Source: a virus. From it: a stretch of 25,845 bases of DNA. Positions 5,145-23,984 of this stretch are shown here, piece by piece. The notes under the pieces were generated by a model, which saw nothing but the letters and a program-made list of their open reading frames with translations, was not told the origin of the DNA and did no database searches. The stretch is from positions 1 to 25,845 of IMG/VR virus record IMGVR_UViG_3300021373_002194, one strand, 5' to 3'. Numbering within the stretch: position 1 is the stretch's first letter; every line of letters begins with the position of its first letter. Position numbers and translations under genes: made by a program.

Positions 5145-6254
5145 ATGCACATCGAGAGTGACACCAAACTAGATTACTCGGACGTTCTCCTTCGTCCGAA
5201 GCGTTCAACACTAACGTCTAGAAAGGAGGTCAAGCTCACTCGAACATTTGCATTTCCTCATTCTCAACGAAAGATCGACGTCAATCCTATTATCGCAGCT
5301 AATATGGATGGCGTCGGTACTTTTGAGATGCTCAAGGTTCTTTCAGAAGACAACATGCTTGTAGCACTCAATAAATCATACACTCCAGAAAAACTCCGCG
5401 ATGTATATAGTCATGCAGCTATGAAAGATAGCAACCGCATGAAAGAGAGTCTATGCTTGACAATTGGTATGCAGGATGCAGACTATGAAAAGGTCAGAGA
5501 GTTAAAAGGTAAATTCCCTATTATTTGCATTGACACTCCGAACGGCTACATGGAGAAGTATGTCCAATTTGTAAAGTCTATCCGTGATCTTTGTGGTGTC
5601 AATAATATTATCATTGCAGGTAACGTAGTTACCGCTGATCAGACACAGGAGTTGATTCTAAATGGAGCTGACGTGGTTAAAGTGGGCATTGGTCCTGGAT
5701 CTGTTTGTACTACTCGTATTGTTACTGGTGTTGGGTATCCGCAACTATCGACGATTATGGAGTGCGCGGATGCCGCTCATGGGCTTGGCGGTCATGTTGT
5801 TGCTGACGGGGGTTGCACTTCTCCGGGAGATGTAGCCAAAGCATTTGCTGCAGGCGCAGACTTTGTAATGCTTGGTGGTATGCTGGCAGGTCATGATGAA
5901 GGTGGTGGTGAACCTGTCTATAAGTATATTCATAACAATGAGTACTACTACATGAAGGAAGATGAGGTCTATAAGCCTGTTATCGACCGCAAAGAGTTTC
6001 GTCAGTTCTACGGCATGTCATCCAATACAGCTAACAAGAAGCATGCAGGTGGACTGAAGGACTATCGTGCATCAGAAGGCCGGGATATCCTTGTGCCTTA
6101 CCGTGGTGCAGTTGCTGATACCGTACAGTATATTTTGGGCGGGCTCAGGTCCACGTGCACGTACGTAGGAGCAAAGCAGATAAAAGACCTGACTAAGTGT
6201 GCTACATTTGTCAAAGTGAATAATCAATACAACAGGGTATATGAGAATGCTTAA
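5145..6254 (+). CDS. guaC: GMP reductase (IMPDH/GMPR family)
   Basis: This 369-residue enzyme would convert GMP to IMP and ammonia with NADPH, recycling guanine nucleotides toward adenine nucleotides. Family hallmarks are the N-terminal [14 protein letters not shown], the catalytic loop [12 protein letters not shown] with nucleophile Cys188, [17 protein letters not shown], the phosphate-binding [11 protein letters not shown], and the flap region FYGMSS plus [12 protein letters not shown] near the C-terminus. The FYGMSS/CTYVGA pattern and the lack of a CBS domain favour GMP reductase over IMP dehydrogenase. Length is close to bacterial GuaC (about 347). A GAGAGG ribosome site 5 nt upstream supports ATG 5145. 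The 3' end overlaps the heme oxygenase start. Confidence 0.88.
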
Positions 6255-6810
6255 ACTTCGTGAACTAACCATGGAGCAACATAAGAATGCAGAACGTTCC
6301 AACTTTGCTAAGAAGCTTGTTTCAGGTAAAATTGATAGAGCCGAGTATGCTGAATATCTTCGCAATATGTGGGTGGTATACAATTGTCTAGAAACATGCG
6401 CGATCAAGTTACGAACTCTTGAAGGTATTGAAAACATCAGAAGAACAAAAGGCATTAAAAGTGACTTGATAAAAATTTTAGGATCAAAAAGAGAAGCTAT
6501 AGATACTTCTAACCTGTGTCCATCTACAATAGAGTATGTAGATTATTTGACTCCGATTTCTGATCCTGAAAAGATCTTAGCTCATGTTTATGTTCGGCAC
6601 ATGGGTGACTTATCTGGCGGTCAGATCATTGCTAATAGAATTAAGGACAAGCTGCCTACTAAGTTCTATGAATTTGCAGAAGACCCTGAAGTCCTGAAGG
6701 ATAAGCTAAGAGAAAAGCTAAATAATGATATGGCAGATGAAGCTATGGTAGCTTTCGACTATGCACATAAAATCTTTTTAGAACTGGATGCACGGGATGA
6801 TCTGGGATAA
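6241..6810 (+). CDS. Heme oxygenase (biliverdin-forming)
   Basis: This 189-residue, all-helical protein would open heme to biliverdin IXalpha, CO and iron, using reduced ferredoxin or a similar donor. The first helix holds the proximal heme ligand in EQHKNAER (His14 counting from ATG 6241). The distal helix carries the family signature RHMGDLSGGQI (residues about 119-129), whose Gly-Gly pair lets the helix bend over heme. The segment DYLTPISDPEKILAHVYVRH before it is also typical. The size fits compact bacterial or phage heme oxygenases. It overlaps GMP reductase upstream by 14 nt and the bilin reductase downstream by up to 23 nt. ATG 6247 is an alternative start. Confidence 0.88.
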   Translation: MRMLKLRELTMEQHKNAERSNFAKKLVSGKIDRAEYAEYLRNMWVVYNCLETCAIKLRTLEGIENIRRTKGIKSDLIKILGSKREAIDTSNLCPSTIEYVDYLTPISDPEKILAHVYVRHMGDLSGGQIIANRIKDKLPTKFYEFAEDPEVLKDKLREKLNNDMADEAMVAFDYAHKIFLELDARDDLG

Positions 6811-10598: not shown

Positions 10599-10956
10599 AG
10601 TTCCAGTGAGCGTCGGAGAGTTGTTCGATAAGATTACAATTCTTCTTATAAAGAAAGATAATAAGATTGAAGGCGTAGACAAAGAGCTTGATCTTTTAAA
10701 TGAGATTTCTAAAAAGATACAAAAAAGCGTTATTCTTGATGCGCTGGTCTCTCAACTCATGAACATCAATCAGAGCCTGTGGAGTATTGAAGACTATAAG
10801 AGATACTGTGAAAAGAACAAGATTTTTGATGATGATTTTATAGATCGTTCTCGAGCAGTCTATTATCTGAATGATGAGAGAGCTAGGATCAAGTCCAAGA
10901 TCAATCAGTTCGTTGGATCAGACATTCATGAATATAAGAGCCATGGAGATTACTGA
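10588..10956 (+). CDS. DUF6165-family protein
   Basis: A 122-residue helical protein beginning with the family-like pattern KVPVSVGELFDKITILLIK. A middle segment LWSIEDYKRYCEK and a C-terminal half RAVYYLNDERARIKSKIN follow. I recall this pattern from DUF6165 proteins, which often sit in bacterial lipopolysaccharide or glycan gene clusters; that matches its place at the head of this one. Several in-frame ATGs exist (10579, 10588, 10591). I prefer 10588 because GAGG at 10575-10578 is 9 nt upstream. It overlaps ClpP by 11 nt and the next gene by 1 nt (TGATG). Confidence 0.65.
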   Translation: MMVKVPVSVGELFDKITILLIKKDNKIEGVDKELDLLNEISKKIQKSVILDALVSQLMNINQSLWSIEDYKRYCEKNKIFDDDFIDRSRAVYYLNDERARIKSKINQFVGSDIHEYKSHGDY

Positions 10957-11690
10957 TGAAGCACCTGGCCCTATATCATCATAGCAGAGTTACTCCAGGA
11001 AAAAAGCACGGTACTCACAGGCTAGGAGATAAGGTGCATACTATGTTTTGCGCTTATCAGTATGGAGTTTACCACGGTGAGCCAGTAACTATGCACTTGA
11101 GCAGTAAGTTAGCATACACAGATATGATGAAGCAATGGAATGAGATCTTAGATCTGTTTCCAAAAGATTCAGTTGAGCTTAAGATTTGGGATGATATGGG
11201 AGTCCTTACAGATGAAGAGATCATTGAGTTTCTTGAGTCAAAGGGAATAGAGTCTCCTAATGTCTACTTCTATGAAGACGCAAAAGAAGAAGACATTGAC
11301 ATCACCTATTATCTTAAGAACAAGCAGCTAGTTCCTCCTATTGATGTAGAGGTAGACCTACCGCCACAAAAATTTATTACCATGCAGTGGGATAGTCCAG
11401 ATCCATCCAGAAGGATGCCAGAAGACTTTATACAGAGACTGGTATCTTACTATCAGAGAACTGGTTACGATCTTATCGAGATTGGTAAAGATCAAAGTCT
11501 AGCTCAGATATCGCATTACTTAAGCAAAGCTGAGATGCATGTAGGTGTACATTCAGGCATGCTGCATATGGCGCAGATGTATATGCCTCATAAGAAGATA
11601 CATATATATTCTCAGATTGGAGCTCAAGATCATGTCAAAAGGTTCCAGGGTTTTGGTAGTAAAGTGAATCCATTATTAGGACTAGTATGA
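10956..11690 (+). CDS. GT9-like (heptosyltransferase-type) glycosyltransferase
   Basis: This 244-residue protein resembles the C-terminal nucleotide-sugar-binding half of GT9 enzymes: KFITMQWDSPDPSRRMP, then GYDLIEIGKDQSLAQISHYLS, then EMHVGVHSGMLHMAQMY. The last stretch is the typical donor-binding Gly-x-x-Ser-Gly segment. The N-terminal half is short and divergent, so the protein is smaller than classic heptosyltransferases (about 320-350 residues). It is clearly paralogous to the gene at 15397-16095. It probably transfers a sugar in the surface-glycan pathway encoded around it; donor and acceptor are unknown. Confidence 0.6.
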   Translation: MKHLALYHHSRVTPGKKHGTHRLGDKVHTMFCAYQYGVYHGEPVTMHLSSKLAYTDMMKQWNEILDLFPKDSVELKIWDDMGVLTDEEIIEFLESKGIESPNVYFYEDAKEEDIDITYYLKNKQLVPPIDVEVDLPPQKFITMQWDSPDPSRRMPEDFIQRLVSYYQRTGYDLIEIGKDQSLAQISHYLSKAEMHVGVHSGMLHMAQMYMPHKKIHIYSQIGAQDHVKRFQGFGSKVNPLLGLV

Positions 11691-12457
11691 TGAAAGATAT
11701 TATGTTTTTTAGTGGAGGGTTTGATCCTATCCACTCAGGCCACATCAGCGCGATTAATGAGGCGAGCAAGCACGGTGAGTTAGTAATTGGTCTTAATTCA
11801 GATGATTGGCTGACTAGAAAAAAAGGAATGCCGTTTCTTCCTTTTGAAGAAAGAAAAAATATCATCTCTCAGTTCAAGAACGTTAAGACAGTTATAGGAT
11901 TTGACGATAGTGATGGCACCGCTATCGGAGGTATCGATAAAGCTCTAGAGCTATTTCCTGATAGCAAGATTATCTTTGTCAATGGTGGGGACCGGACTCC
12001 TGGAAACGTACCCGAAGAAGAGCACTTTAAAGGTAATCCTAGAGTGGGCTTTAAGTTCTCAGTAGGAGGAGATGATAAGCGCAACTCTTCTAGTTGGATT
12101 CTTGAAAAATGGAAGTACCAAAAGACTTATAGGGACTGGGGGCACTGGAGAGTCTTAGATGATAAGGTAACCACTAAGACTAAAGAGCTAGTGATTGAGC
12201 CGGGTAAATCTTTGAGCGATCAGCGCCATTTCTACAGGTCAGAGCACTGGTATGTGCTATCAGGTAAGTTGGAGATTGATACTGAAACACCTGATCCAGT
12301 TGTAAAGAAGACACTTCTACTTTATCCTCATTCAACAGCCACCATTACGTCTAGAACCTGGCATAAGGCTAGAAATGTAGGAACTGAACCTGTCCACGTT
12401 ATTGAGATTCAGCACGGTACAAGATGCATTGAAGATGATATCGAAAGACGAGATTAA
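11687..12457 (+). CDS. Nucleotidyltransferase-cupin fusion
   Basis: This 256-residue protein joins two domains. Residues 1-135 are a cytidylyltransferase-type fold with GGFDPIHSGH (HxGH at residues 16-19), GLNSDDWLTRKKG, and NSSSWILEKW in place of the usual ISTTxI motif. Residues about 145-256 are a cupin like the C-terminal domain of mannose-6-phosphate isomerase/GDP-mannose pyrophosphorylase: LSDQRHFYRSEHWYVLSGKLEI, then TWHKARNVG, then EIQHG, then EDDIERRD. The first domain would activate a sugar or polyol phosphate; the second could be an isomerase or epimerase. It overlaps its upstream neighbour by 4 nt and ends directly before the next gene. The natural substrate is unknown. Confidence 0.7.
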   Translation: MMKDIMFFSGGFDPIHSGHISAINEASKHGELVIGLNSDDWLTRKKGMPFLPFEERKNIISQFKNVKTVIGFDDSDGTAIGGIDKALELFPDSKIIFVNGGDRTPGNVPEEEHFKGNPRVGFKFSVGGDDKRNSSSWILEKWKYQKTYRDWGHWRVLDDKVTTKTKELVIEPGKSLSDQRHFYRSEHWYVLSGKLEIDTETPDPVVKKTLLLYPHSTATITSRTWHKARNVGTEPVHVIEIQHGTRCIEDDIERRD

Positions 12458-13243
12458 ATGACAAGTGTCTTAATAACAACTATAATGAGGGATAATGAAA
12501 AGTTTATCCCGTACTACCACAGTCAGATAAAAAAGCTAGTAGAAGCGTATGACTATACATTTTATGTTTCTATATATGAAAATGACTCCAAAGATTCTTC
12601 AGCTGAAATGCTTCGCTCTTTAGACTGGTCTTTTTTAAAAGATAGGATTATAATTCAAACGGAAAGTATTGATACTAAAAAGTTTGGATCAGAGATGTCA
12701 AGGGAAAGGGTTGATAATCTAGGCGTGGCTAGAATGAAAAGCATATATGCCAATGATAAAAAGTTTTTAGATCAATGTGATTATGTGTTAGCAATCGAGT
12801 CTGATTTTTCTTACAACATTAGAGATGTAGGGAACCTGATCGAGTTTAAAAAGAACAATGGATTGCGGAATGTAGATATAGTGTCTGGAGTGAGCATCAA
12901 TAAGATGTCAGATAGGACAACTAGAGATACATGGGCAACCAGAACCAGCGCAGATACTCCGCCACACTTTAGACATGGGAGACTGCATGAAAACTGGCAG
13001 ATCACTAAGTACGGAAAGTACTACACCACGTTTAATGGGCTGTGTCTATATAAAGCTGAACCAATAAAGAAGGGTGCAGCTTTTGCTGGTTTTAACAAGA
13101 GACTAAATACATTTGACTGCGACACTGCAGTTATATGCGAAGACTTTCATATGATGGGATACTCTGACATATACATTGATCACACTATTAGAGTCATGCA
13201 CTGCGGATATAGAGCAGCTCCGGTAGAAAACTTTAAATATTGA
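12458..13243 (+). CDS. CAP59/GT69-like mannosyltransferase
   Basis: This 261-residue, GT-A-like protein resembles the cryptococcal mannosyltransferase 1 family (CAP59, GT69). It opens with VLITTIMRDNEKFIPYY, then YVSIYENDSKDSSAEMLRSL (nucleotide-binding END/SKD region), then RVDNLGVARMKSIY. The acidic donor-metal motif is YVLAIESDFSY, and CEDFHMMGY is near the end. Such enzymes use activated mannose or similar sugars, which fits the GDP-mannose dehydratase nearby. ATG 12458 directly follows the previous stop; the 3' end touches the next gene. Most arginines are AGA/AGG. Confidence 0.65.
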   Translation: MTSVLITTIMRDNEKFIPYYHSQIKKLVEAYDYTFYVSIYENDSKDSSAEMLRSLDWSFLKDRIIIQTESIDTKKFGSEMSRERVDNLGVARMKSIYANDKKFLDQCDYVLAIESDFSYNIRDVGNLIEFKKNNGLRNVDIVSGVSINKMSDRTTRDTWATRTSADTPPHFRHGRLHENWQITKYGKYYTTFNGLCLYKAEPIKKGAAFAGFNKRLNTFDCDTAVICEDFHMMGYSDIYIDHTIRVMHCGYRAAPVENFKY

Positions 13244-13254
13244 AAGATTATGAC

Positions 13255-14412
13255 ATGAATGATTGGCAATGGCCTTTAATGAAGAATGCTATTCTTGAAG
13301 AAGACAAGCAGGCTCTCATTAACTTTATTCAAACTACAGATAGATTCACTAACGGACCTATGGTTCGAAAGTTTGAGCAAGAGTGGAGTGAATGGTTAGG
13401 CGCTAACCAAAGCTTAATGGTGAGTTCTGGTAGCACGGCTAATTTTCTATTAGTAGCCGCAGTTAAAGAGCTGTACGGCCTTAAAGACGGTGATAAGGTT
13501 CTTGTTCCTGCATGCACATGGATGACTAACGTCGCTCCAGTGATGCAGTTAGGATTCGATCCAGTTTTCTGTGACGTTGAGATGAAGACCTATGGATTTG
13601 ATATTGAGTATCTTAAGTCCATCCCAAATCGAGATGAGATCAAGGTCGTCTTTGTAAGTCACTTATTGGGTCTGCGCTGCCCTATTGAAGAGTATAAAGA
13701 GATTCTTCCTAATGCGATCTTTATTGAAGACATCTGTGAGTCTCATGGTATCACTAACGATGATGGAGTTAAGCAGGGTTCCGAATCACTAGGATCAACA
13801 TTTAGCTTTTACTTTGGTCATCATATGACATGCATTGAAGGCGGTATAGTATCGACTAACAATGAGGCCCTATATGACTTAATGAAGATGAAGAGAAGTC
13901 ACGGTCTTGCAAGAGAATCAGTTCACTATGAAAAGTACAAGACCTACTATCCTGAAATTCAGCCAGAGTTTCTATTCATTACGGACGGATATAACTTCAG
14001 AAGCAGTGATTTAAATGCAGTGCTAGCATCGTCTCAACTTAAGAACTTATCTAGATCTATTGAGATTAGAAAAAAGAACTTTGAGTACTTCATGTCATTT
14101 ATGCCGGCAGATAAGTTCTACTTACCAAGCTCTTCAAGTAACAACAGCAGCTTCTGCTTTCCGGTAGTCAGCAAGACTAAGAGGCAGCACACTGACCTTA
14201 TGACTAAACTTAAAGAAGCTAAGATTGAGTTTAGACCAGTGATTGGAGGAAACTTGCTTAAGCATCCTTTCTTGAGTAACAAAGGATATGGACTTAACAC
14301 TGAAACTTCTAACGTAGATATTATTCATCAGCAAGGTCTGTATCTAGGAAACAATCACATGATTGGCGAAGAAGAGCTTGATATTTTAAAAGGTATTATT
14401 GAGGATCTATAG
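13255..14412 (+). CDS. ColD-like PLP-dependent sugar 3-dehydratase (DegT/DnrJ/EryC1 family)
   Basis: This 385-residue protein has the DegT fold: TNGPMVRKFEQEW, VSSGSTANFLL (phosphate-binding SGSTA), VLVPACTWMTNV, and FIEDICESHG, where the aspartate contacts the PLP ring. The position normally held by the Schiff-base lysine reads SFYFGHHMTCIEGG, with His189-His190 instead. This His replacement is the hallmark of ColD and related sugar 3-dehydratases, which remove the C3 hydroxyl rather than transaminate a 4-keto sugar. The gene precedes GDP-mannose 4,6-dehydratase, whose product is ColD's substrate. Start ATG 13255 has GAAAG at 13242-13246; TTG 13240 is an upstream alternative. A plain aminotransferase label would probably be wrong. 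Confidence 0.75.
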   Translation: MNDWQWPLMKNAILEEDKQALINFIQTTDRFTNGPMVRKFEQEWSEWLGANQSLMVSSGSTANFLLVAAVKELYGLKDGDKVLVPACTWMTNVAPVMQLGFDPVFCDVEMKTYGFDIEYLKSIPNRDEIKVVFVSHLLGLRCPIEEYKEILPNAIFIEDICESHGITNDDGVKQGSESLGSTFSFYFGHHMTCIEGGIVSTNNEALYDLMKMKRSHGLARESVHYEKYKTYYPEIQPEFLFITDGYNFRSSDLNAVLASSQLKNLSRSIEIRKKNFEYFMSFMPADKFYLPSSSSNNSSFCFPVVSKTKRQHTDLMTKLKEAKIEFRPVIGGNLLKHPFLSNKGYGLNTETSNVDIIHQQGLYLGNNHMIGEEELDILKGIIEDL

Positions 14413-14413
14413 C

Positions 14414-15394
14414 ATGAAAAAAAGAGCACTTATTACCGGAATCACTGGACAAGACGGCGCCTATCTAGCTAAGTTACTTTTAAGTAAGGGCTATGAAGTC
14501 TATGGGTTTTCTTCTCGCAGAGTCAACCAGACTTACCAGAACTTAGATTACTTAGAAATTACAAATGACGTCAATATTATCTTCGGCGATATCACTGACC
14601 AATCTAGCATCAACCACGCAGTAAAGACTTCTCGTCCACACGAAGTCTATAACTTAGCTGCAATGAGCTTTGTTGGATTGAGCTGGCAAGAACCTATTCA
14701 TACCGCCCATGTCGATGGCATGGGGCCTTTGTACTTGTTAGAATCTATTCGTAACTTTGCTCCAAACGCAAAAGTGTATCAGGCATCTACATCTGAGATG
14801 TACGGAAACAATTGGGAAGCTGACTTTACGCAGAATGAATTGACACCGTTTAGACCTAGGTCTCCTTATGGTTCGGCTAAAGTCTTTGCCCATCACTCCA
14901 CTGTAAACTATAGGGAAAGCTACGATCTTTTTGCATGCTGTGGTATCCTATTCAATCATGAGTCTCCTATTCGTGGACTTGAGTTTGTAACACGCAAGAT
15001 TACTGACGGCGTTGCTAGGATCAATGTTGGTCTAGATGATAAGATTGAGCTAGGTAACTTAGATGCTAGGAGAGACTGGGGATTCGCAGGAGACTATGTA
15101 GAAGCTATGTGGATGATGCTGCAGCAAGATGATCCTGATGACTATGTCATTGCAACAGGAAAAACCTGGAGCATCAAGGAGCTTCTTGATAGAGCGTTTG
15201 GTCATATCGGCATCAACGACTGGACTGGGTGTGTTGTTCAGAACCCTGACTTTATCCGACCAGCTGAAGTCCCTCACCTGAAAGGTAATCCATCCAAAGC
15301 AAAAGATAAATTAGGATGGGAACCTAAGACAAGCTTTGATGATCTTGTAACCATGATGATGGAAGCCGATATAAAAAGATATAAAAAGATATAG
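14414..15394 (+). CDS. gmd: GDP-mannose 4,6-dehydratase
   Basis: This 326-residue short-chain dehydrogenase would convert GDP-mannose to GDP-4-keto-6-deoxymannose. The N-terminal Rossmann motif is GITGQDGAYLAKLLL (residues 9-23). The catalytic site shows ASTSEMYG (Ser/Thr 125-127, Glu128) and YGSAK (Tyr152, Lys156). Further family marks are NLAAMSFVGLSW, LFNHESPIRG, LGNLDARRDWGFAGDYVEAMW and RPAEVPHLKGNPSKAKDKLGW. Start ATG 14414 follows GAGGATC with 8 nt spacing; TTG 14399 is less likely. Length is slightly below the usual 340-370. It lies directly after the ColD-like gene. The 3' end carries a short tandem repeat (GATATAAAAA twice). Confidence 0.88.
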   Translation: MKKRALITGITGQDGAYLAKLLLSKGYEVYGFSSRRVNQTYQNLDYLEITNDVNIIFGDITDQSSINHAVKTSRPHEVYNLAAMSFVGLSWQEPIHTAHVDGMGPLYLLESIRNFAPNAKVYQASTSEMYGNNWEADFTQNELTPFRPRSPYGSAKVFAHHSTVNYRESYDLFACCGILFNHESPIRGLEFVTRKITDGVARINVGLDDKIELGNLDARRDWGFAGDYVEAMWMMLQQDDPDDYVIATGKTWSIKELLDRAFGHIGINDWTGCVVQNPDFIRPAEVPHLKGNPSKAKDKLGWEPKTSFDDLVTMMMEADIKRYKKI

Positions 15395-15396
15395 AA

Positions 15397-16095
15397 ATGA
15401 TTAACTTAGTACCAAGCAAAAAGTACTTGAAAGATATGTCTATAACCCTTGGAGATAGATTAGATTATTTTTCATACGGTCTATCCATATCAAAGATAAG
15501 AGACACTGATGTTTGCCTGTCATTTTCTGATGAGCTCTTTGAGTTTGTCAATGACAGGTATGATTGGGATAAGCTTCATCTGGGAGCTTCAACAGAAGGT
15601 ATTACAGAAGTTCTTGAATTCGGTTCAGCAGCACACATGACGTATAAGACAAACTACTATAAAGTCTTTGAAAGCATCTCTGACTGGCCAAAGTTTGATA
15701 ATATACCTGAACATGATATCTCCTTGCCGGAAAAGTTTGTGACATGGCAGTTTGACGCTGGACAATCATACCGGCAGATCGATCCAGAAAGAAGAGAAAA
15801 GATAAAGAAGCACTATGAAGACAGAGGATTTGAGATTATAACCATCGGAGGCCAGGCTGAAATTGAAGGTCTAAGGAAAGATATAAGTCTAACTACATAT
15901 GTAATGTCAAAGGCATCTTATCATGTCGGCGCAGACTCCGGCTTTCCTCATTTGGCTAAGCTAGTGCTTCCTATGAACAAAGTGCATGTCTATGTCAATT
16001 CATATAAAGTCAGCTATCAGGCAAACATCTTAGAGCATGCTGGATGCAAGATAAATTATTGTGAAGGATTTAATTATGCTACGTCAGCTTTTTAA
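15397..16095 (+). CDS. GT9-like glycosyltransferase, paralogue of the 10956-11690 gene
   Basis: This 232-residue protein shares a clear pattern with the protein at 10956-11690: KFVTWQFDAG versus KFITMQWDSP, then GFEIITIGG versus GYDLIEIGK, then SKASYHVGADSGFPHLAKL versus SKAEMHVGVHSGMLHMAQM, then KVHVYVNS versus KIHIYSQI. The C-terminal part resembles the nucleotide-sugar-binding half of GT9 enzymes; the N-terminal part is different (LVPSKKYLKDMSITLGDRL). Two divergent copies in one cluster suggest an old duplication followed by specialisation for different sugars. It overlaps the methyltransferase start by 20 nt. Confidence 0.55.
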   Translation: MINLVPSKKYLKDMSITLGDRLDYFSYGLSISKIRDTDVCLSFSDELFEFVNDRYDWDKLHLGASTEGITEVLEFGSAAHMTYKTNYYKVFESISDWPKFDNIPEHDISLPEKFVTWQFDAGQSYRQIDPERREKIKKHYEDRGFEIITIGGQAEIEGLRKDISLTTYVMSKASYHVGADSGFPHLAKLVLPMNKVHVYVNSYKVSYQANILEHAGCKINYCEGFNYATSAF

Positions 16096-16690
16096 TAAGC
16101 ACAAGTGTGATAAAGGACATAGGCACGGATACGAGTCTGTCTATGAGCCAGATTTTGAAAAGGTAAGAGAAGAACCTATTAACATCTTAGAAGTAGGAAT
16201 CTTAAGAGGAGAATCGATCAAGGCCTGGGTAGAATATTTTCCAAATGCAACAATCTATGGTATCGATAACTTTTCTAGAGTATCAGCTAATACGATCAGT
16301 ATTCTAGATCATGAAAGAGTAAAGTGGTTATCAGCAGACAGTATGTCTCCAGGTCTAAAGGATCATATCAAAGAGAACTGGGGAAGCGTCAAGTTTGATT
16401 TTATTATTGATGACGGCCTTCATACTCCTAAAGCGAATGCTGCAACGTTTAGTAACCTTTACCCTCTTCTGAAAAAAGGTGGAATCTTTTATATCGAAGA
16501 TGTTTTCCCTATAGACAAACTCACTATTCAGGAAATGAATCTTCCATTCTTTGCAAACAAAGGTGATACCTTTAGCATGATAGAATATAATAAGTTTTTA
16601 AATATAGTAAATCCATATAAGCCTGAGCAGATTGATCTCAGGAAAAACACTGGTAATCTAGACAGCTATATCTTTAAGGTTACAAAATGA
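16076..16690 (+). CDS. Class I SAM-dependent methyltransferase (TylF/CmcI-like)
   Basis: This 204-residue methyltransferase has SAM motif I ILEVGILRGESIKAW and the acidic ribose-binding end IYGIDNF. FDFIIDDGLHTPKANAATF follows, with the metal/active-site pattern of macrocin-type sugar O-methyltransferases, then LKKGGIFYIEDV. Its place among glycosyltransferases suggests it methylates a sugar on the phage-directed glycan. Start ATG 16076 is favoured because GAAGG (16063-16067) lies at good spacing; GTG 16061 is an alternative. It overlaps the next start by 4 nt (ATGA). Confidence 0.7.
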   Translation: MLRQLFNKHKCDKGHRHGYESVYEPDFEKVREEPINILEVGILRGESIKAWVEYFPNATIYGIDNFSRVSANTISILDHERVKWLSADSMSPGLKDHIKENWGSVKFDFIIDDGLHTPKANAATFSNLYPLLKKGGIFYIEDVFPIDKLTIQEMNLPFFANKGDTFSMIEYNKFLNIVNPYKPEQIDLRKNTGNLDSYIFKVTK

Positions 16691-17478
16691 AAAGATTGAT
16701 CTATCAGGTGTATATGGGAAAGCGCAAGAATCTCTATGATACATGCGTTGAGTCTGTCAAGCGCTATTGTGAGAAGTACAATATTGAGCATAGAGTCCAG
16801 ACGCAGCCTATACTGAGAATCAAACCTAATATATTTCAAAATAACAGGCCAGATCATGTGATGAGGCTAGGATACCTTCCTATTCTTGAAAAAGAAAACG
16901 CCTTTGATCTCTTGCCGGAGTATGACCAGATCGCAATCATTGATTCAGATGTATACGTGTCAGAAGATGCTCCTAATATCTTTGAAAGTATAGATGATAA
17001 TTCATGCTTTGCCGGAGTTCCAGAAAGAGATCTTCCTTTAACAAAAGAGTACTCTGAACTTATTGCTAGATACTCAGAAAGACACTACGGTGAGATTGCG
17101 GGAAAGAGCGGTAGCAACTTTGAACCAAACCGTTTAGGATATGAGTACTTTAATATGGGAGTCATGGTCCTTAACAAGTCTTTCCATGACTATATCAAGG
17201 TTCCTGTTAAGGAGTGGTTGCAGCTGGCTGAGTTCCAACCGTTTATCAATGGCTATGGTAACTGGGGATGGACGCAAGACCAGACTCTCTTAAACTGGTT
17301 TATCAGATCTAGAAAGATTCCATTCAATAGGCTGGAATGGAAGTTCAACGCGCTTATTAGAGCAGTCAGACCTGAGCGTATCAGCGAGTCATATTTTGTT
17401 CACTTTGCAGATCAGAACAAGTTGCCTGGCCGAGGAGAAAATACTAAAGAGCTACTGGAGATGATTGGTGTACGATAA
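16687..17478 (+). CDS. GT-A glycosyltransferase with DxD motif
   Basis: A 263-residue protein with an N-terminal Rossmann-like strand (LIYQVYMGKRKNLYDTCVES), the metal/donor motif YDQIAIIDSDVYVSEDAP (DSD), a central YFNMGVMVLNKS, and WTQDQTLLNWFI. This order (DxD, then NxGVM, then DQ) is that of GT8-like transferases. The C-terminus contains SYFVHFADQNKLPGRG. It is translated with the methyltransferase before it and the similar transferase after it. Sugar donor and acceptor are unknown. Arginines are mostly AGA. Confidence 0.65.
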   Translation: MKRLIYQVYMGKRKNLYDTCVESVKRYCEKYNIEHRVQTQPILRIKPNIFQNNRPDHVMRLGYLPILEKENAFDLLPEYDQIAIIDSDVYVSEDAPNIFESIDDNSCFAGVPERDLPLTKEYSELIARYSERHYGEIAGKSGSNFEPNRLGYEYFNMGVMVLNKSFHDYIKVPVKEWLQLAEFQPFINGYGNWGWTQDQTLLNWFIRSRKIPFNRLEWKFNALIRAVRPERISESYFVHFADQNKLPGRGENTKELLEMIGVR

Positions 17479-18124
17479 AGTCTTTGTTACTGGATCAGAT
17501 AAAAATAATGAATGGATGCTGGAGTGGTTCTTAAATAACTTTAAGATGCATAACACTACTCCTATCGTATTTGCTGATTTTGGAGTCTCTGATAAGGTTA
17601 GAGAATGGGCAGATAAAGAGTTTGATTCTGTTATAGAAATGCCTAAGTCTAAGGGTACATCTTGGTTTCTTAAGCCGTTGACTATGATTCAGGCTTCGAA
17701 GGTTTCTAAAAAAGTGTGCTGGATCGATACTGACTGTCATGTACTTAGATCTATAGACGATATCTTTAAATACACTGAACCCCAGAAGCTTTGTATGGGA
17801 TTAGATAAGCCTTGGACAGAGCAGTTCAATGAGACTTGGCATAACTCCGGTGTAGTTGCGTTTGAAGGAACTCCTCATGTTTTAATCGCATGGGAAAAGA
17901 GTGTCAGATCAACAGATAATATTAGAGGCGATCAAGAGGTCTTGCACGCCATGATGAGAAACGATGCATTAAGAAGAAGAGTATATATCAAAGATCTTCC
18001 TAACTTTTATAACTGGCTCCGTCTTCAAGTTCAAAACGGAGATGATAGTTTTAATAAGAGAGTAATGCACTGGACGGGAAGAAAAGGAAAGGATCAGATT
18101 CGGGAGTTAATGAAGAGTGTCTAA
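17468..18124 (+). CDS. GT8-like glycosyltransferase with DxD motif
   Basis: A 218-residue protein with KVFVTGSDKNNEWMLEWFL at the N-terminus, the DxD motif VCWIDTDCHVLRS, the acceptor-site pattern WHNSGVVAFEG, GDQEVLHAM and the closing motif VMHWTGRKG. The motif order matches the preceding gene, so the two may be distant relatives adding consecutive sugars. Start GTG 17468 has GGAG at 17457-17460; TTG 17465 is an alternative. Of its 12 arginines, 10 are AGA. It overlaps the neighbours on both sides by about 10 nt. Confidence 0.65.
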   Translation: MYDKVFVTGSDKNNEWMLEWFLNNFKMHNTTPIVFADFGVSDKVREWADKEFDSVIEMPKSKGTSWFLKPLTMIQASKVSKKVCWIDTDCHVLRSIDDIFKYTEPQKLCMGLDKPWTEQFNETWHNSGVVAFEGTPHVLIAWEKSVRSTDNIRGDQEVLHAMMRNDALRRRVYIKDLPNFYNWLRLQVQNGDDSFNKRVMHWTGRKGKDQIRELMKSV

Positions 18125-18743
18125 GAAAGTTGTTCATGTTGTTGGTAACGGTGATAATGCAGTGTGGTTTGATAATGCAAAGGCAGAAGGCTTAAGAGTA
18201 ATATGCAACAAGCCTGTAGTGCAAGTAGACAAAGTCCACACCTGCTGCATTGTAGATTTTAAGATGATGAAGGCTCTCACTGAAGGCAGCGTCAACTTAG
18301 ATAGATACACGTGGGTCTTAGGGTATAGACCAAAGATTCATATGGAAAAGAATCCTTCCTTTCACATGAAGCACGCTGGTCATATCAGAGAGTTCTATCT
18401 CAACCTTCCGCCATACGCTGGTAAGGGTGGACCAGGTTACACTAACTTCAATTGCGGGCACTTCGCCACTCACTACTCTGCAAACAAGTTAAAAGCTGAC
18501 GAGATTCATATGTATGGCTTTGACTGCATCTTTGATTTTACGACCAGATCAATGACAGATTTCTTTCTCCCTTCAGACAGAGGCGATAACAACACGGTTC
18601 GCCTGACTGACGTATGGAGAAAGATCTTTGCTGGTATCTTTAAAGAGTTTGCTGATACAAAGTTTATCCTGCATCACAAGCACGATAATATCAAGATTCC
18701 TAAGCTGAATAACATGGATATCGTGGTTCACAACAAAAAATAA
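18117..18743 (+). CDS. Rossmann-like glycan-cluster protein, possibly sialyltransferase-like
   Basis: This 208-residue protein is not assigned with confidence. It begins with a nucleotide-binding-like strand-turn (KVVHVVGNGDNAVWF). A later segment, FNCGHFATHYSANKLKADEIHMYGFD (positions 18451-18528), reads like the S/N-x-G-x-x-A followed by GFD pattern of bacterial GT42/GT29-type or DUF115-like enzymes. Its position as the last gene of the glycan operon supports a transferase role. Start GTG 18117 overlaps the previous stop. An AT-rich promoter region follows immediately. Confidence 0.5.
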   Translation: MSKKVVHVVGNGDNAVWFDNAKAEGLRVICNKPVVQVDKVHTCCIVDFKMMKALTEGSVNLDRYTWVLGYRPKIHMEKNPSFHMKHAGHIREFYLNLPPYAGKGGPGYTNFNCGHFATHYSANKLKADEIHMYGFDCIFDFTTRSMTDFFLPSDRGDNNTVRLTDVWRKIFAGIFKEFADTKFILHHKHDNIKIPKLNNMDIVVHNKK

Positions 18744-20093: not shown

Positions 20094-20124
20094 CACTTAG
20101 GGGGTTTACAAAGCTCCCTAAGTG
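20094..20124. terminator. Hairpin at end of DUF932 unit, overlapping the next promoter
   Basis: The inverted repeat CACTTAGGG (20094-20102) and CCCTAAGTG (20116-20124) is a perfect 9-bp stem. In RNA it can extend by five more pairs (two of them G-U) to a 3-nt loop, ACA. On the plus strand it is followed by TATTATAT, a weak U-tract. On the minus strand it is followed by AAC and seven Ts, a good U-tract. It may be a bidirectional terminator or an operator, since the -35 box at 20105-20110 lies inside it. Confidence 0.6.
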
Positions 20125-20165: not shown

Positions 20166-20702
20166 ATGATCCGTTTGGTATCGACCCTCTTCGTTTCTGC
20201 TATCGTCACTGCTTCTATGTATGCCATTGTCACTGCTTCGGAAACGGAAGCACATGAACTTGATTGCAACCTCGTCAGCTTCGGCGAGTACGACTATACG
20301 CATGTATCAACTAATCTTCCAACACGTAACAACAACCCTGGTAACATCCGCAAGACAAAGGTGACTTACTTTGGCGAGACAACTAATGGATCTGGGTTTG
20401 AGTCCTTCGCTGCTCCTGAATGGGGATATGCAGCTATGTTTGATCTTCTTGACCGCCTGTACACTGGACTCACTCTAAGCGAAGCGATCTACAAGTGGGC
20501 ACCTCCGGTAGAGAACGACACTGAGAAGTATGTTCGGTTTGTCGCAAAGAAGACCGGATATGATCGTAACGAATACAAAGTAAATGTGAATGATGAAAGC
20601 ATCATCGAGTTTGCCAAGTGGATGTCTGTTCTTGAAGGCATGAAAGGCTTCTCTGATGATGATGTGACTATGGGTTACATGGTATGGGAAAGGTGTTACT
20701 AG
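20166..20702 (+). CDS. Lysozyme-like/P5-type peptidoglycan hydrolase candidate with N-terminal signal anchor
   Basis: A 178-residue protein starting with a long hydrophobic, Ala-rich segment (residues 2-26, LVSTLFVSAIVTASMYAIVTA) that could be a cleavable signal or a signal-anchor-release sequence. The domain carries the pattern RNNNPGNIRKTK (about residues 54-65), GFESFAAPEWGYAAMFDLL and YKWAPPVENDTEKYV, known from phage P5-like structural muralytic proteins and related hydrolases. The likely role is peptidoglycan cleavage during lysis or entry. It has its own promoter. No holin is identified beside it, which would fit a self-exporting enzyme. Catalytic residues are not assigned. Confidence 0.65.
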   Translation: MIRLVSTLFVSAIVTASMYAIVTASETEAHELDCNLVSFGEYDYTHVSTNLPTRNNNPGNIRKTKVTYFGETTNGSGFESFAAPEWGYAAMFDLLDRLYTGLTLSEAIYKWAPPVENDTEKYVRFVAKKTGYDRNEYKVNVNDESIIEFAKWMSVLEGMKGFSDDDVTMGYMVWERCY

Positions 20703-20715
20703 AGGATGATGAATA

Positions 20716-20862
20716 ATGAATAGTTATGACAAAAGACTGATTGAACGTCTAAGAAACTGGGAAAAGGTATATCCAGAAGACGAAGACAAACCTGAAGGCA
20801 ATCTTTATCTAGAAGCGGCAGAAAGAATTGTAGAGTTATTAAAGGATCAAAATGATGGATGA
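20716..20862 (+). CDS. 48-residue acidic protein of unknown function
   Basis: A short frame from ATG 20716 to TGA 20860-20862. The product (MNSYDKRLIERLRNWEKVYP, then acidic EDEDKPEGN, then LYLEAAERIVELLKDQN) is charged and would form two amphipathic helices. GAGGATGATG (20702-20711) supplies a ribosome site. The stop region overlaps the start of the next small gene, and the frame explains otherwise empty sequence. No family is recognised. Confidence 0.5.
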   Translation: MNSYDKRLIERLRNWEKVYPEDEDKPEGNLYLEAAERIVELLKDQNDG

Positions 20863-21007
20863 TTTAAATCAGTTTACCAATTATGTTAAGGCAATAGATA
20901 TCATTCTGCTCCATGAAGACATTGATCAGCTAAAAGATTTGGAAAGATATTGCCAACATCGTATTAAACAATTAGAGGTTGAGAATGAAGCACAAGCGTT
21001 TATGTGA
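20852..21007 (+). CDS. 51-residue helical protein of unknown function
   Basis: A short frame from ATG 20852 (or ATG 20855) to TGA 21005-21007. The product (MMDDLNQFTNYVKAIDIILL, then HEDIDQLKDLERYCQHRIKQ, then LEVENEAQAFM) reads as two helices, the second coiled-coil-like. AAAGGAT (20841-20847) is a fitting ribosome site. Its 3' end overlaps the aldolase start by 23 nt. No family is recognised, but the SD, the overlaps and the composition support translation. Confidence 0.5.
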   Translation: MMDDLNQFTNYVKAIDIILLHEDIDQLKDLERYCQHRIKQLEVENEAQAFM

Positions 21008-21776
21008 AGAAGGTTTTGGTGAGAAGGGTAACTATACTATTATCCTTCCTATTGACCAAGGAGTAGAGCATGGTCCAGTAGATGCATTCTATTCTACTGA
21101 CCATCCAGAAATGTTGGACATTGATTATCAGGTGGAATTCATTGCAGAACTGCTACATGAGGGTCTAGTAGGTGCTACAGCACTACCAAAACGCACTGCT
21201 AATCTACTTTGTAAAAAGTATCCCCACCTTGCTAAAGATGTTATTTTGAAACTGAATCATGGTAATAATCTAAACCAAACCCTTGAACCATCACAGGCAA
21301 TCTATGCTAGTTCTCAGGATGCTGCTGACATGGGTGGTGTAGGGTTTACAATCTATCCGGGTTCTTCTAATCAAGATGATATGATTAATTATTTTGGTAA
21401 AATCCAAGAACATAAACCGGATAATGTAAAGTCTATTCTCTGGTCTTATCCCCGTGGTGGTGACTTTTATAAGACTACAATTAAAACAATCATGCATGCT
21501 GCATATATGGCTGCACAGTTAGAACCTGATGTTATTAAGGTCAAAATGCCAACAAATAATGGCGATGTTACAAACATTGTTAAGGCGGCATGTGGCATTC
21601 CTGTAGTCTTCTCGGGTGGACAATACGTTGACACTTACAATATGATTGATTATGCAAAACGTATTAAAGAGGCAGGTGGATATGGTATGATTGTAGGTCG
21701 TAATGTATTCCAACGTGAGCGACACCAAGCAAAGCATTTGCTGAAAGAAATACACAGAGTTTTTAGGGAGAGTTAA
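20985..21776 (+). CDS. Class I fructose-bisphosphate aldolase (DhnA/FbaB type)
   Basis: This 263-residue TIM-barrel protein would reversibly split fructose 1,6-bisphosphate to dihydroxyacetone phosphate and glyceraldehyde 3-phosphate through a lysine Schiff base. Marks of the DhnA/FbaB family are IILPIDQGVEHGP, ILKLNHGNN, GFTIYPGSS, LWSYPRGGDF, DVIKVKMPTNNG (Schiff-base Lys expected at 185 or 187), PVVFSGG and the phosphate-binding GGYGMIVGRNVFQR. Length matches compact archaeal-type enzymes rather than E. coli FbaB (about 350). Start ATG 20985 has AGAGG (20974-20978) 6 nt upstream, so it is preferred over TTG 20979. Related DhnA aldolases that make aromatic precursors cannot be fully excluded. 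Confidence 0.82.
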   Translation: MKHKRLCEEGFGEKGNYTIILPIDQGVEHGPVDAFYSTDHPEMLDIDYQVEFIAELLHEGLVGATALPKRTANLLCKKYPHLAKDVILKLNHGNNLNQTLEPSQAIYASSQDAADMGGVGFTIYPGSSNQDDMINYFGKIQEHKPDNVKSILWSYPRGGDFYKTTIKTIMHAAYMAAQLEPDVIKVKMPTNNGDVTNIVKAACGIPVVFSGGQYVDTYNMIDYAKRIKEAGGYGMIVGRNVFQRERHQAKHLLKEIHRVFRES

Positions 21777-22166
21777 ATGAAATATCTCATAGCAATACTG
21801 TTTGCTTTGGTTCCTAGTATTGCTATGAGTCAGGTGATCACTAAAGAAAATATGATTATGGAGTATAAAGACATTGCCAGTTTAGCTGCGGCTGAAGTTC
21901 TGGGATGTGGTAAAATTAATAAAGAAAACATAAAAAGATTTAATACAATTTTTGATGCCTTTATGCTCGACAAAGCTGAAGAAGAAGGTTTTAATGTTAC
22001 AATAGAAGATATTGAAGGATGGAAACTGGCAACACTAATTGAACAATATGATGCAATGAGAGGTATTCCATGTTCAGTGATCAATGAATCTATTGATGAG
22101 TTTAATGAAACAAGTCGATATACACAAGAAATATACGACTATTATACACCAGCAGGAGGAATATAA
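21777..22166 (+). CDS. Secreted small helical protein
   Basis: A 129-residue protein with a clear Sec signal peptide (MKYLIAILFALVPSIAMS, cleavage expected before Gln19). The mature part is helical and acidic, with two cysteines (LGCGK and GIPCSV) that could form a periplasmic disulfide. A strong GGGAG site precedes ATG 21777, which directly follows the aldolase stop. No family is recognised. A phage protein exported to the periplasm beside an aldolase gene could act in lysis, exclusion or envelope change; there is no direct evidence. Confidence 0.6.
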   Translation: MKYLIAILFALVPSIAMSQVITKENMIMEYKDIASLAAAEVLGCGKINKENIKRFNTIFDAFMLDKAEEEGFNVTIEDIEGWKLATLIEQYDAMRGIPCSVINESIDEFNETSRYTQEIYDYYTPAGGI

Positions 22167-22351: not shown

Positions 22352-22571
22352 ATACAAGATCCTAAGCCGAAAACGTTTCTGCGACATGGTCGAAGAGTAC
22401 ATCTACATGAAGGATGTACCTTATATGGAAGCTGTTATTGATTTAATGGGCGAGCATGAAATAGAAGCAGATCGAATACCAAATTTAATCAATACATCGA
22501 TTAGGGATAAGATCGAAGCTGAGGCTCGTGATCTTAACTTCCTAGAACAAATTAACAAGTTGCCATTATGA
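22341..22571 (+). CDS. 33: Late-transcription coactivator, gp33-like
   Basis: A 76-residue protein: MDIEYKILSRKRFCDMVEEY, then YMEAVIDLMGEHEIEADRIP, then IRDKIEAEARDLNFLEQINK ending LPL. The pattern (MVExY, then YMEAV, an EhxIExxxIPxLI segment, then IxxEAxxLNFL near a hydrophobic C-terminus) matches the gp33 late-promoter accessory proteins of T4-like cyanophages as I recall them. In T4, gp33 links RNA polymerase to the sliding clamp. Its position close to gp32 also matches T4 gene order. I reject the longer frame starting at 22254, whose first 29 residues overlap another gene and look non-coding. Confidence 0.6.
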   Translation: MDIEYKILSRKRFCDMVEEYIYMKDVPYMEAVIDLMGEHEIEADRIPNLINTSIRDKIEAEARDLNFLEQINKLPL

Positions 22572-22897
22572 AAAGATTGAGAAATTTTATGTTACGTTTA
22601 ATTGGAATGTACATCCCCTTTGTCCTGGTTATCCTAGGCATCGGAGCATGCAGCTATATCTACAAGGATAACTTCCTTGATAGGTTTAAGCAAGAGGGGA
22701 CGGTAGATGCACCAGAATCACCCGTACTGGAGAGTGAGGAAGAACCCGTTATCGTGGAAGAACCAGTTATTGAAGAGGAGCAGCCTGATGCCGTGGAAGT
22801 GGATGCCAGTGAAGGGGAGCTATCAGCAGGTACCTTACCCGGAATCGGAGAGTGTGTCTGCCCAGATCAAAGCACCCCAGCTCTGGAAGAAGAATAA
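22568..22897 (+). CDS. Membrane-anchored acidic protein
   Basis: A 109-residue protein with a basic N-terminus (MKRLRNFMLRLIG), one transmembrane helix (about residues 14-32, containing Cys28), then a Glu- and Pro-rich periplasmic region with an EEPVI tandem repeat (EEEPVIVEEPVIEEE). A Cys pair (ECVCPD) lies near the end. The topology resembles small inner-membrane spanin-like or tether proteins, but no coiled coil is evident. ATG 22568 overlaps the gp33 stop (ATGA). A second frame with its own strong ribosome site overlaps the 3' half. Confidence 0.55.
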   Translation: MKRLRNFMLRLIGMYIPFVLVILGIGACSYIYKDNFLDRFKQEGTVDAPESPVLESEEEPVIVEEPVIEEEQPDAVEVDASEGELSAGTLPGIGECVCPDQSTPALEEE

Positions 22898-23069: not shown

Positions 23070-23984
23070 ATGTCATTAGCAGCACTTAAAAACTCCCGCA
23101 ACTCCTCTATCGATAAGCTTCTGAATGCAGCTCAAAGCCTGAACGAACCGACTGAGCGTCGTGGTCCAGATGAGCGTATGTGGAAACCTACTGTCGATAA
23201 GTCCGGTAACGGGTACGCTGTAATCCGATTCCTTCCTACACCTGAAGGTGAGGACCTTCCGTTTGCACGGTACTGGGATCACTTCTTCCAGAACAAGACT
23301 ACCGGCCTCTACTATGTAGAGAAGTCCCTGACCACTATCGGTCAGAAGGACCCAGTCGGTGAGCTTAACTCCAAGCTCTGGAATGCAGGCGGTGAAGGTT
23401 CCCCTGAACGAGATCAGGCTCGGGAACAGAAGCGCCGTCTCCACTACGTATCAAACATCTATGTAGTATCGGACAGCCAGGCGCCCGAGAATGAAGGTAA
23501 GGTGTTCCTCTATCAGTACGGTCAGAAGATCTATGAAAAGCTGATGCAGGCAATGCAGCCTGAGTTTCCAGATGATGATCCGGTCAATCCGTTTGATATG
23601 TGGGAAGGTGCGGACTTTAAACTGAAGATTCGCAACGTGGCCGGTTGGCGTAACTACGATGCTGCAGCCTTTGCCGCACCGTCTGCCTTGGCTGATGATG
23701 AGACACTGGATCGCATCTACTCTCAGGTACACTCACTTAAAGAGTTTACTGATCCATCGACCTTCAAGTCATATGAAGAACTGAAGGCTCAGCTGGATAC
23801 TGTACTTGGTGAGAGTCCAAGCATGACTACTCAGCAGCGAGAGGACCTGTCTATTACAGCCGAATCAGCACCAATGAAGTCAGTTGAGGCCGTCTCTGCA
23901 GCTCCACAGGAGACTCTGGATACCTCGAGTGATGACGATGACGACACTATGTCGTACTTCTCCAAGTTGGCTAACGCAGACTAG
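23070..23984 (+). CDS. 32: Single-stranded DNA-binding protein, gp32-like
   Basis: This 304-residue protein matches T4 gp32. The N-terminus (MSLAALKNSRNSSIDKLLNA) is the cooperative self-assembly region. The OB-fold core contains WKPTVDKSGNGYAVIRFLP, YYVEKSLTTIGQKDPVGELN, YVSNIYVVSDSQAPENEGKV and FLYQYGQKIYEKL, then WEGADFKLKIRNVAGWRNYD. The C-terminal tail is acidic (TSSDDDDDTMS) and would bind replication partners. The T4 zinc-binding cysteines are absent (CPVC is replaced by DPVG), so no zinc site is expected. Every arginine codon I read is CGN. Its stop overlaps the convergent gene's stop in CTAG (23981-23984). Confidence 0.9.
   Translation: MSLAALKNSRNSSIDKLLNAAQSLNEPTERRGPDERMWKPTVDKSGNGYAVIRFLPTPEGEDLPFARYWDHFFQNKTTGLYYVEKSLTTIGQKDPVGELNSKLWNAGGEGSPERDQAREQKRRLHYVSNIYVVSDSQAPENEGKVFLYQYGQKIYEKLMQAMQPEFPDDDPVNPFDMWEGADFKLKIRNVAGWRNYDAAAFAAPSALADDETLDRIYSQVHSLKEFTDPSTFKSYEELKAQLDTVLGESPSMTTQQREDLSITAESAPMKSVEAVSAAPQETLDTSSDDDDDTMSYFSKLANAD

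Follow-up and report, generated by a model that had tools for sequence, protein, structure and literature searches.

Class I fructose-bisphosphate (FBP) aldolases (FBA) act through a Schiff-base lysine that forms an imine with DHAP or FBP, and they are metal-free. The described enzymes closest in sequence to the phage aldolase analyzed here are those of the bacterial FbaB type (~305 aa, NF006704, e.g., Methylocystis WP_124740362), at 35-39% identity, and these are also its nearest lineage in our phylogenetic tree. They share with it the motifs DQG(V/F)EHG, WSYPRG, IKVKLP, FSGG and GRN.FQR, together with the catalytic residues, whereas the phage protein differs from them by two deletions, a longer loop after strand 1, a separate long-branched clade and a score below the family cut-off. 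The T. tenax aldolase (FBPA; 1ojx, 1w8s, 2yce) is likewise a minimal barrel of 263 aa with equivalents of D24, Y146 and K177, and is the best fold match, but it is 28% identical, belongs to a different clade and has H25 where the phage protein has Q25. E. coli FbaB (DhnA) is a member of the same superfamily with the same catalytic triad (D74/Y201/K237), although it is 350 aa long, 27% identical and located on a distant branch. Finally, ADH synthase (ADHS; MJ0400) and LsrF have the fold and the Schiff-base lysine in common with the phage aldolase; however, ADHS differs at 10 of 10 FBA-diagnostic positions and the LsrF fold match is much weaker.

Viral fbaB is already known. Listings of fbaB go back to 2013, with 12 reads in a single marine virome (PMC3877843); the gene is also listed in Mediterranean viruses (PMC10653327) and in a review table, where it is marked 'not validated' (PMC12713726), and an ALDO gene is listed for trench sediment viruses (PMC12448302). 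Like the gene analyzed here, the first three of these are class I FBP aldolases annotated as viral auxiliary metabolic genes, but they are KO-level listings without validation. The compact clade, its genomic position and its exchange go undescribed in the searchable text of these four publications, and clade and swappable locus, both described below, appear to be new.

We analyzed a 25,845-nt stretch of DNA from a marine T4-like phage (IMG/VR virus record IMGVR_UViG_3300021373_002194), referred to as the window, in which an open reading frame of 263 aa runs from ATG to stop. This gene and its predicted functional positions are:

20985..21776, + strand: compact class I fructose-bisphosphate aldolase, 263 aa, FbaB/DhnA superfamily (profile, fold, tree, alignment)
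21054..21056, + strand: Asp24 codon, predicted general acid/base (T. tenax D24, E. coli D74; alignment, PMC4881948)
21447..21449, + strand: Tyr155 codon (T. tenax Y146, E. coli Y201; alignment, PMC4881948)
21537..21539, + strand: Lys185 codon, predicted Schiff-base lysine (T. tenax K177, E. coli K237; alignment, PMC4881948)
21675..21704, + strand: GGYGMIVGRN phosphate-binding loop with G238 and R239 (translation, alignment)

In profile searches the protein matched the Pfam DeoC/LacD aldolase family (PF01791, 8.8e-26) and several class I FBP aldolase models, the best of which was NCBIfam NF006704 (7.2e-46). Its score of 156.5 bits does not reach the curated NF006704 cut-off of 277 bits, and its score against the archaeal-type class I FBA model NF040816 is 87 bits, where the curated cut-off is 430. 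On these scores the window aldolase is best described as a divergent relative of the NF006704 equivalog that lies outside its membership. Among PDB sequences, T. tenax FBPA (1.3e-25) was matched ahead of ADH synthase MJ0400 (2.4e-13). The Pfam, NF006704 and T. tenax matches all lie well outside chance expectation. An AlphaFold2 model built from a 53-sequence alignment (mean pLDDT 92.9, pTM 0.91) gave the same order in Foldseek: the best PDB matches were T. tenax FBPA 2yce/1w8s (E ~3e-18, TM ~0.8), and the T. tenax structures matched include the Schiff-base intermediate series, followed by ADH synthase 2qjg (4e-15) and then LsrF (1e-10). Foldseek against viral models returned no matching fold. 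Pfam, AlphaFold2 and Foldseek therefore all place the protein within the TIM-barrel fold of the DeoC/LacD/DhnA superfamily.

The first-pass annotation had proposed a phage-borne class I aldolase of the DhnA/FbaB type with an intact Schiff-base segment (DVIKVKMP) and phosphate loop (GGYGMIVGRN). Both proposals held: the family is borne out by the profile and T. tenax matches and the phage setting by the viral record and ~29 further viral contigs, while the two segments occupy residues 182-189 and 231-240, with K185 the first K of KVK, and K185, Y155 and D24 align with T. tenax. The phosphate-site residues G211, G212, G238 and R239 are also kept in alignment with T. tenax and E. coli, for which the catalytic residues were taken from PMC4881948. 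The catalytic columns do not vary among the 21 phage homologues aligned, nor in an alignment of 53 rows that combines phage and bacterial sequences. Moreover, ten positions that separate FBA from ADHS, picked from the present alignment and not from any published list, are all FBA-like (E28, H29, K89, N91, T122, Y124, W153, S154, K187 and S210). An intact class I aldolase gene in a virus is thus a confirmed observation, and conservation of the active site supports the prediction that the enzyme is active.

The phylogenetic tree placed the window aldolase with FBA and not with ADHS; ADH synthases are split from FBA, including the window aldolase, by a 100/100 branch. The phage aldolases are monophyletic (100/99) and lie inside the bacterial FbaB set (100/97) on a long branch of 2.35 changes per site. 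Forcing the phage clade together with the T. tenax and haloarchaeal FBA lowered the log-likelihood by 13.5 (AU p = 0.011), which places the window aldolase outside the archaeal FBA clade and is moderate evidence against an archaeal grouping, with long branches in play. Relative to bacterial FbaB, the phage aldolase has lost ~20 N-terminal residues and a segment of ~21 residues after the catalytic strand, where the span is 27-29 residues in 80 of 80 cellular FbaB but ranges in phage proteins from 8 (window) to 14. Between F35 and I87 the window aldolase spans 52 residues, versus 45 in all 80. Judged from this alignment, the phage enzyme was shortened independently. Given the bacterial placement and this separate shortening, the initial description of a short archaeal-type aldolase is right for size and fold but wrong for descent.

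The ~29 further IMG/VR contigs encode orthologues with 56-94% identity to the window aldolase. When 2.9 million viral contigs were scanned with motifs common to the phage and bacterial FbaB proteins, only this compact phage clade was returned, making it the sole one among viral contigs reachable by those motifs. Among 50,697 sequenced phage records, only two matched, both human-faecal and at 28% identity. The one examined, MT835631.1 (L030:5833-6885), carries a bacterial-type aldolase that groups with Parabacteroides on an unrelated branch; this is an unverified human-faecal 'bacteriophage' record, and its aldolase region is probably bacterial DNA. The early suggestion that such a gene is unfamiliar in phages is therefore borne out for sequenced phage records, but not for marine viruses, for which fbaB had been listed (PMC3877843, PMC10653327, PMC12713726). 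A scan of cellular genome contigs with phage-only motifs found no cellular relative. A broader alignment search identified at least 545 cellular relatives among the stretches checked; among the matches listed, these reached no more than 36% identity by tblastn, or 39% when multiply aligned, and were ~300 aa long. Bacterial FbaB of ~300 aa was present at E <= 1e-30 in 176 of 385 Alphaproteobacteria genomes and bacterial-type FbaB in 6 of 146 Cyanobacteriota genomes, and neither the 385 (best 149 bits) nor the 146 contained a phage-like copy.

The neighborhood of the aldolase gene in the window includes the following features:

20094..20124, + strand: hairpin of 14 pairs followed by a T-rich tail, terminator-like and probably closing the unit before it (consensus scan only)
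20166..20702, + strand: F001, endolysin/tape-measure-like protein (PHROG 873), conserved upstream neighbor (profile, synteny)
20852..21007, + strand: F002, small conserved ORF of 51 aa whose last 23 nt overlap the aldolase start; forms the left cassette flank
21777..22166, + strand: F003, small protein of 129 aa with an N-terminal signal-like stretch; right flank of the cassette
22568..22897, + strand: F005, small membrane-anchored-like protein, member of the conserved block (synteny)
23070..23984, + strand: gp32-type single-stranded DNA-binding protein, end of the block and T4-like marker (profile, synteny)

In T4-like relatives the gene order is DUF932, endolysin-like F001, F002, aldolase, F003, F004, F005 and gp32, with insertions in some contigs. 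This T4-like synteny, seen in many contigs, shows that the aldolase, a candidate auxiliary metabolic gene, is encoded among viral genes. The gp32 and DUF932 proteins have Melnitz-like and cyanophage-like T4 relatives at ~50% identity, too distant to name a host. The hairpin suggests, on consensus evidence only, that the aldolase block is its own transcription unit; the scan gave three such sites versus 3.6 in shuffles, and the stem at 20094-20124 is the longest. The T4 late-promoter motif TATAAATA gave two matches versus 1.65 expected and was discarded as evidence.

F003 begins at the base immediately after the aldolase stop in the window and 2-38 bases after the aldolase in relatives. Proteins of this family (window, L004, L009, L010 and others) have two conserved cysteines, a signal-like N terminus and no family match; the gene lies directly 3' of the aldolase wherever both are detected, and occurs without it in at least five contigs. 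In contigs G009 and G010 the aldolase-F003 pair is found at another place, beside a phosphate-binding-protein-like gene, while in G011 the aldolase adjoins a PP-loop ATPase gene and no F003 was found. Transaldolase is a well-known carbon-metabolism gene of marine phages; none was found in 16 aldolase-bearing contigs, which are fragments, and no partner pentose-phosphate auxiliary metabolic gene was seen in them. Elsewhere in the window, positions 5145-6254 encode a GMP reductase (490 bits versus one curated NCBIfam cut-off of 397; best phage-collection matches 40-52%), and positions 6241-6810 a heme oxygenase (Pfam 4.8e-26); the T4-like phage that carries it may not be a cyanophage. Contig L166 (1-3850) encodes a gp32 99% identical to that of the window, and the 2.9 kb upstream of it contain glycine-rich tail-like ORFs and neither aldolase nor F003; gene content in front of gp32 changes rapidly.

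At least five related contigs (L254, L255, L170, L266 and L267) carry F001 and/or F002 ahead of F003 with no aldolase between them, and in L254 and L255 the left flank matches that of the window at 92-93% identity as far as base 20998. The aldolase slot of such relatives is occupied in six contigs by a basic ORF of 33-34 residues (MKAQTPYITLLRAMKEFKPKSRIKRFIMKFFRR..), located at:

L170:1850, basic ORF
L254:298, basic ORF
L255:3916, basic ORF
L266:726, basic ORF
L267:1269, basic ORF
L268:13, basic ORF

The first bases of this ORF align with the aldolase start, so that one slot is used by two alternative genes. For the window/G001 and window/L001 pairs, the aldolase dS is 0.25-0.27 versus 1.4-4.8 for neighboring genes; the latter values are saturated and show only far greater divergence than that of the aldolase, whose synonymous divergence is at least fivefold lower in the pairs tested. 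This low relative dS indicates that the aldolase moved between diverged phage backbones after those backbones had separated and, together with the same flanks lacking the gene, that it has been exchanged as a cassette. For one sub-clade dN/dS is 0.03-0.09, and for close pairs within the sub-clade of the window it is 0.27-0.43; selection on the aldolase is purifying on the whole and looser in the latter.

Together, these observations make it likely that the gene encodes a virus-carried class I FBP aldolase of bacterial FbaB origin, trimmed and held as an optional cassette, that feeds triose phosphates toward pentose and hexose phosphates. An ancestral bacterial FbaB would have been taken up long ago and pared down to a minimal TIM barrel. 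In the predicted mechanism, Lys185 makes the Schiff base (imine) with DHAP or cleaves FBP, Tyr155 and Asp24 serve as acid/base, G211-G212 and G238-R239 hold the C1 phosphate, and no metal is needed. As one of a short run of co-oriented genes that closes with gp32, the gene is probably expressed with replication genes, and would provide extra aldolase capacity at the triose/hexose node during phage replication. Flux direction through aldolase is set by metabolite levels and is unreadable from sequence. Phage replication demands ribose phosphate, however, and together with the position in a replication-gene block this favors flow from triose phosphates into FBP, and from there into pentose phosphates (for nucleotides) and hexose phosphates, as the most plausible direction. 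Phages of this group would gain, lose and exchange the aldolase by recombination in the conserved flanks.

It is also possible, if doubtful, that the substrate has shifted, and that this DHAP-dependent aldolase acts not as a glycolytic FBP aldolase but on a different sugar phosphate, such as sedoheptulose 1,7-bisphosphate or a phage-sugar or cell-surface-sugar precursor. The very long phage branch leaves room for such a change, and the lost segment after the catalytic strand, the seven extra residues between F35 and I87, the curated FBA equivalog cut-offs that go unreached and the glycosyltransferase genes upstream in several relatives are all consistent with it. Nevertheless, all ten FBA-diagnostic positions are kept, the closest solved fold is an FBP aldolase, and no conserved sugar-pathway partner adjoins the gene. 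A broader form likewise seems to us unlikely, namely a phage-specific family, trimmed and diverged in phages, that has left glycolysis as such and prefers a different ketose phosphate, with the aldolase and the 33-aa basic ORF among at least two alternative alleles at a site exchanged by recombination ahead of gp32.

We consider it improbable that the aldolase supplies fructose 6-phosphate to the GDP-mannose/deoxysugar pathway at 10956-18743 of the window, a role raised at first pass. Genes for a GDP-mannose 4,6-dehydratase, a DegT aminotransferase and a mannose-6-phosphate-isomerase-like cupin do lie 6-10 kb upstream, but they are singletons relative to the other aldolase-bearing contigs, in which the aldolase block is conserved without them, and DUF932, other genes and the terminator-like hairpin intervene. 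The suggestion fares poorly because the dehydratase and most sugar-nucleotide genes of the window are without counterpart in the aldolase-bearing contigs examined, and because the aldolase sits in a separate block by gp32. Near the dehydratase and aminotransferase genes, positions 11687-12457 encode a protein in which a nucleotidyltransferase-like domain of the HldE/cytidylyltransferase type is apparently fused to the C-terminal cupin of a mannose-6-phosphate isomerase.

Acquisition of a true archaeal-type aldolase from archaea is very unlikely: the length equals that of T. tenax FBPA, which is also the closest PDB match, but the tree position with bacterial FbaB, the AU test, Q25 in place of the archaeal H25 and the T4-like bacteriophage neighbors all argue against it. 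Bacterial contamination or a mis-binned contig, which the fragmentary nature of metagenomic contigs and the bacterial-type aldolase of the faecal record might suggest, is already refuted by conserved T4-like synteny in most of the ~29 contigs, and the compact clade has no cellular copy among the matches listed or in the Alphaproteobacteria and Cyanobacteriota samples.

If the trimmed FbaB-derived aldolase is active, a metal-free triose/hexose node would join the carbon-metabolism steps altered by marine phages. The compact clade offers a protein that is small and amenable to assay, and that escapes standard annotation cut-offs. The same flanks with and without the aldolase also provide a natural contrast for asking when a carbon-metabolism gene benefits a phage.
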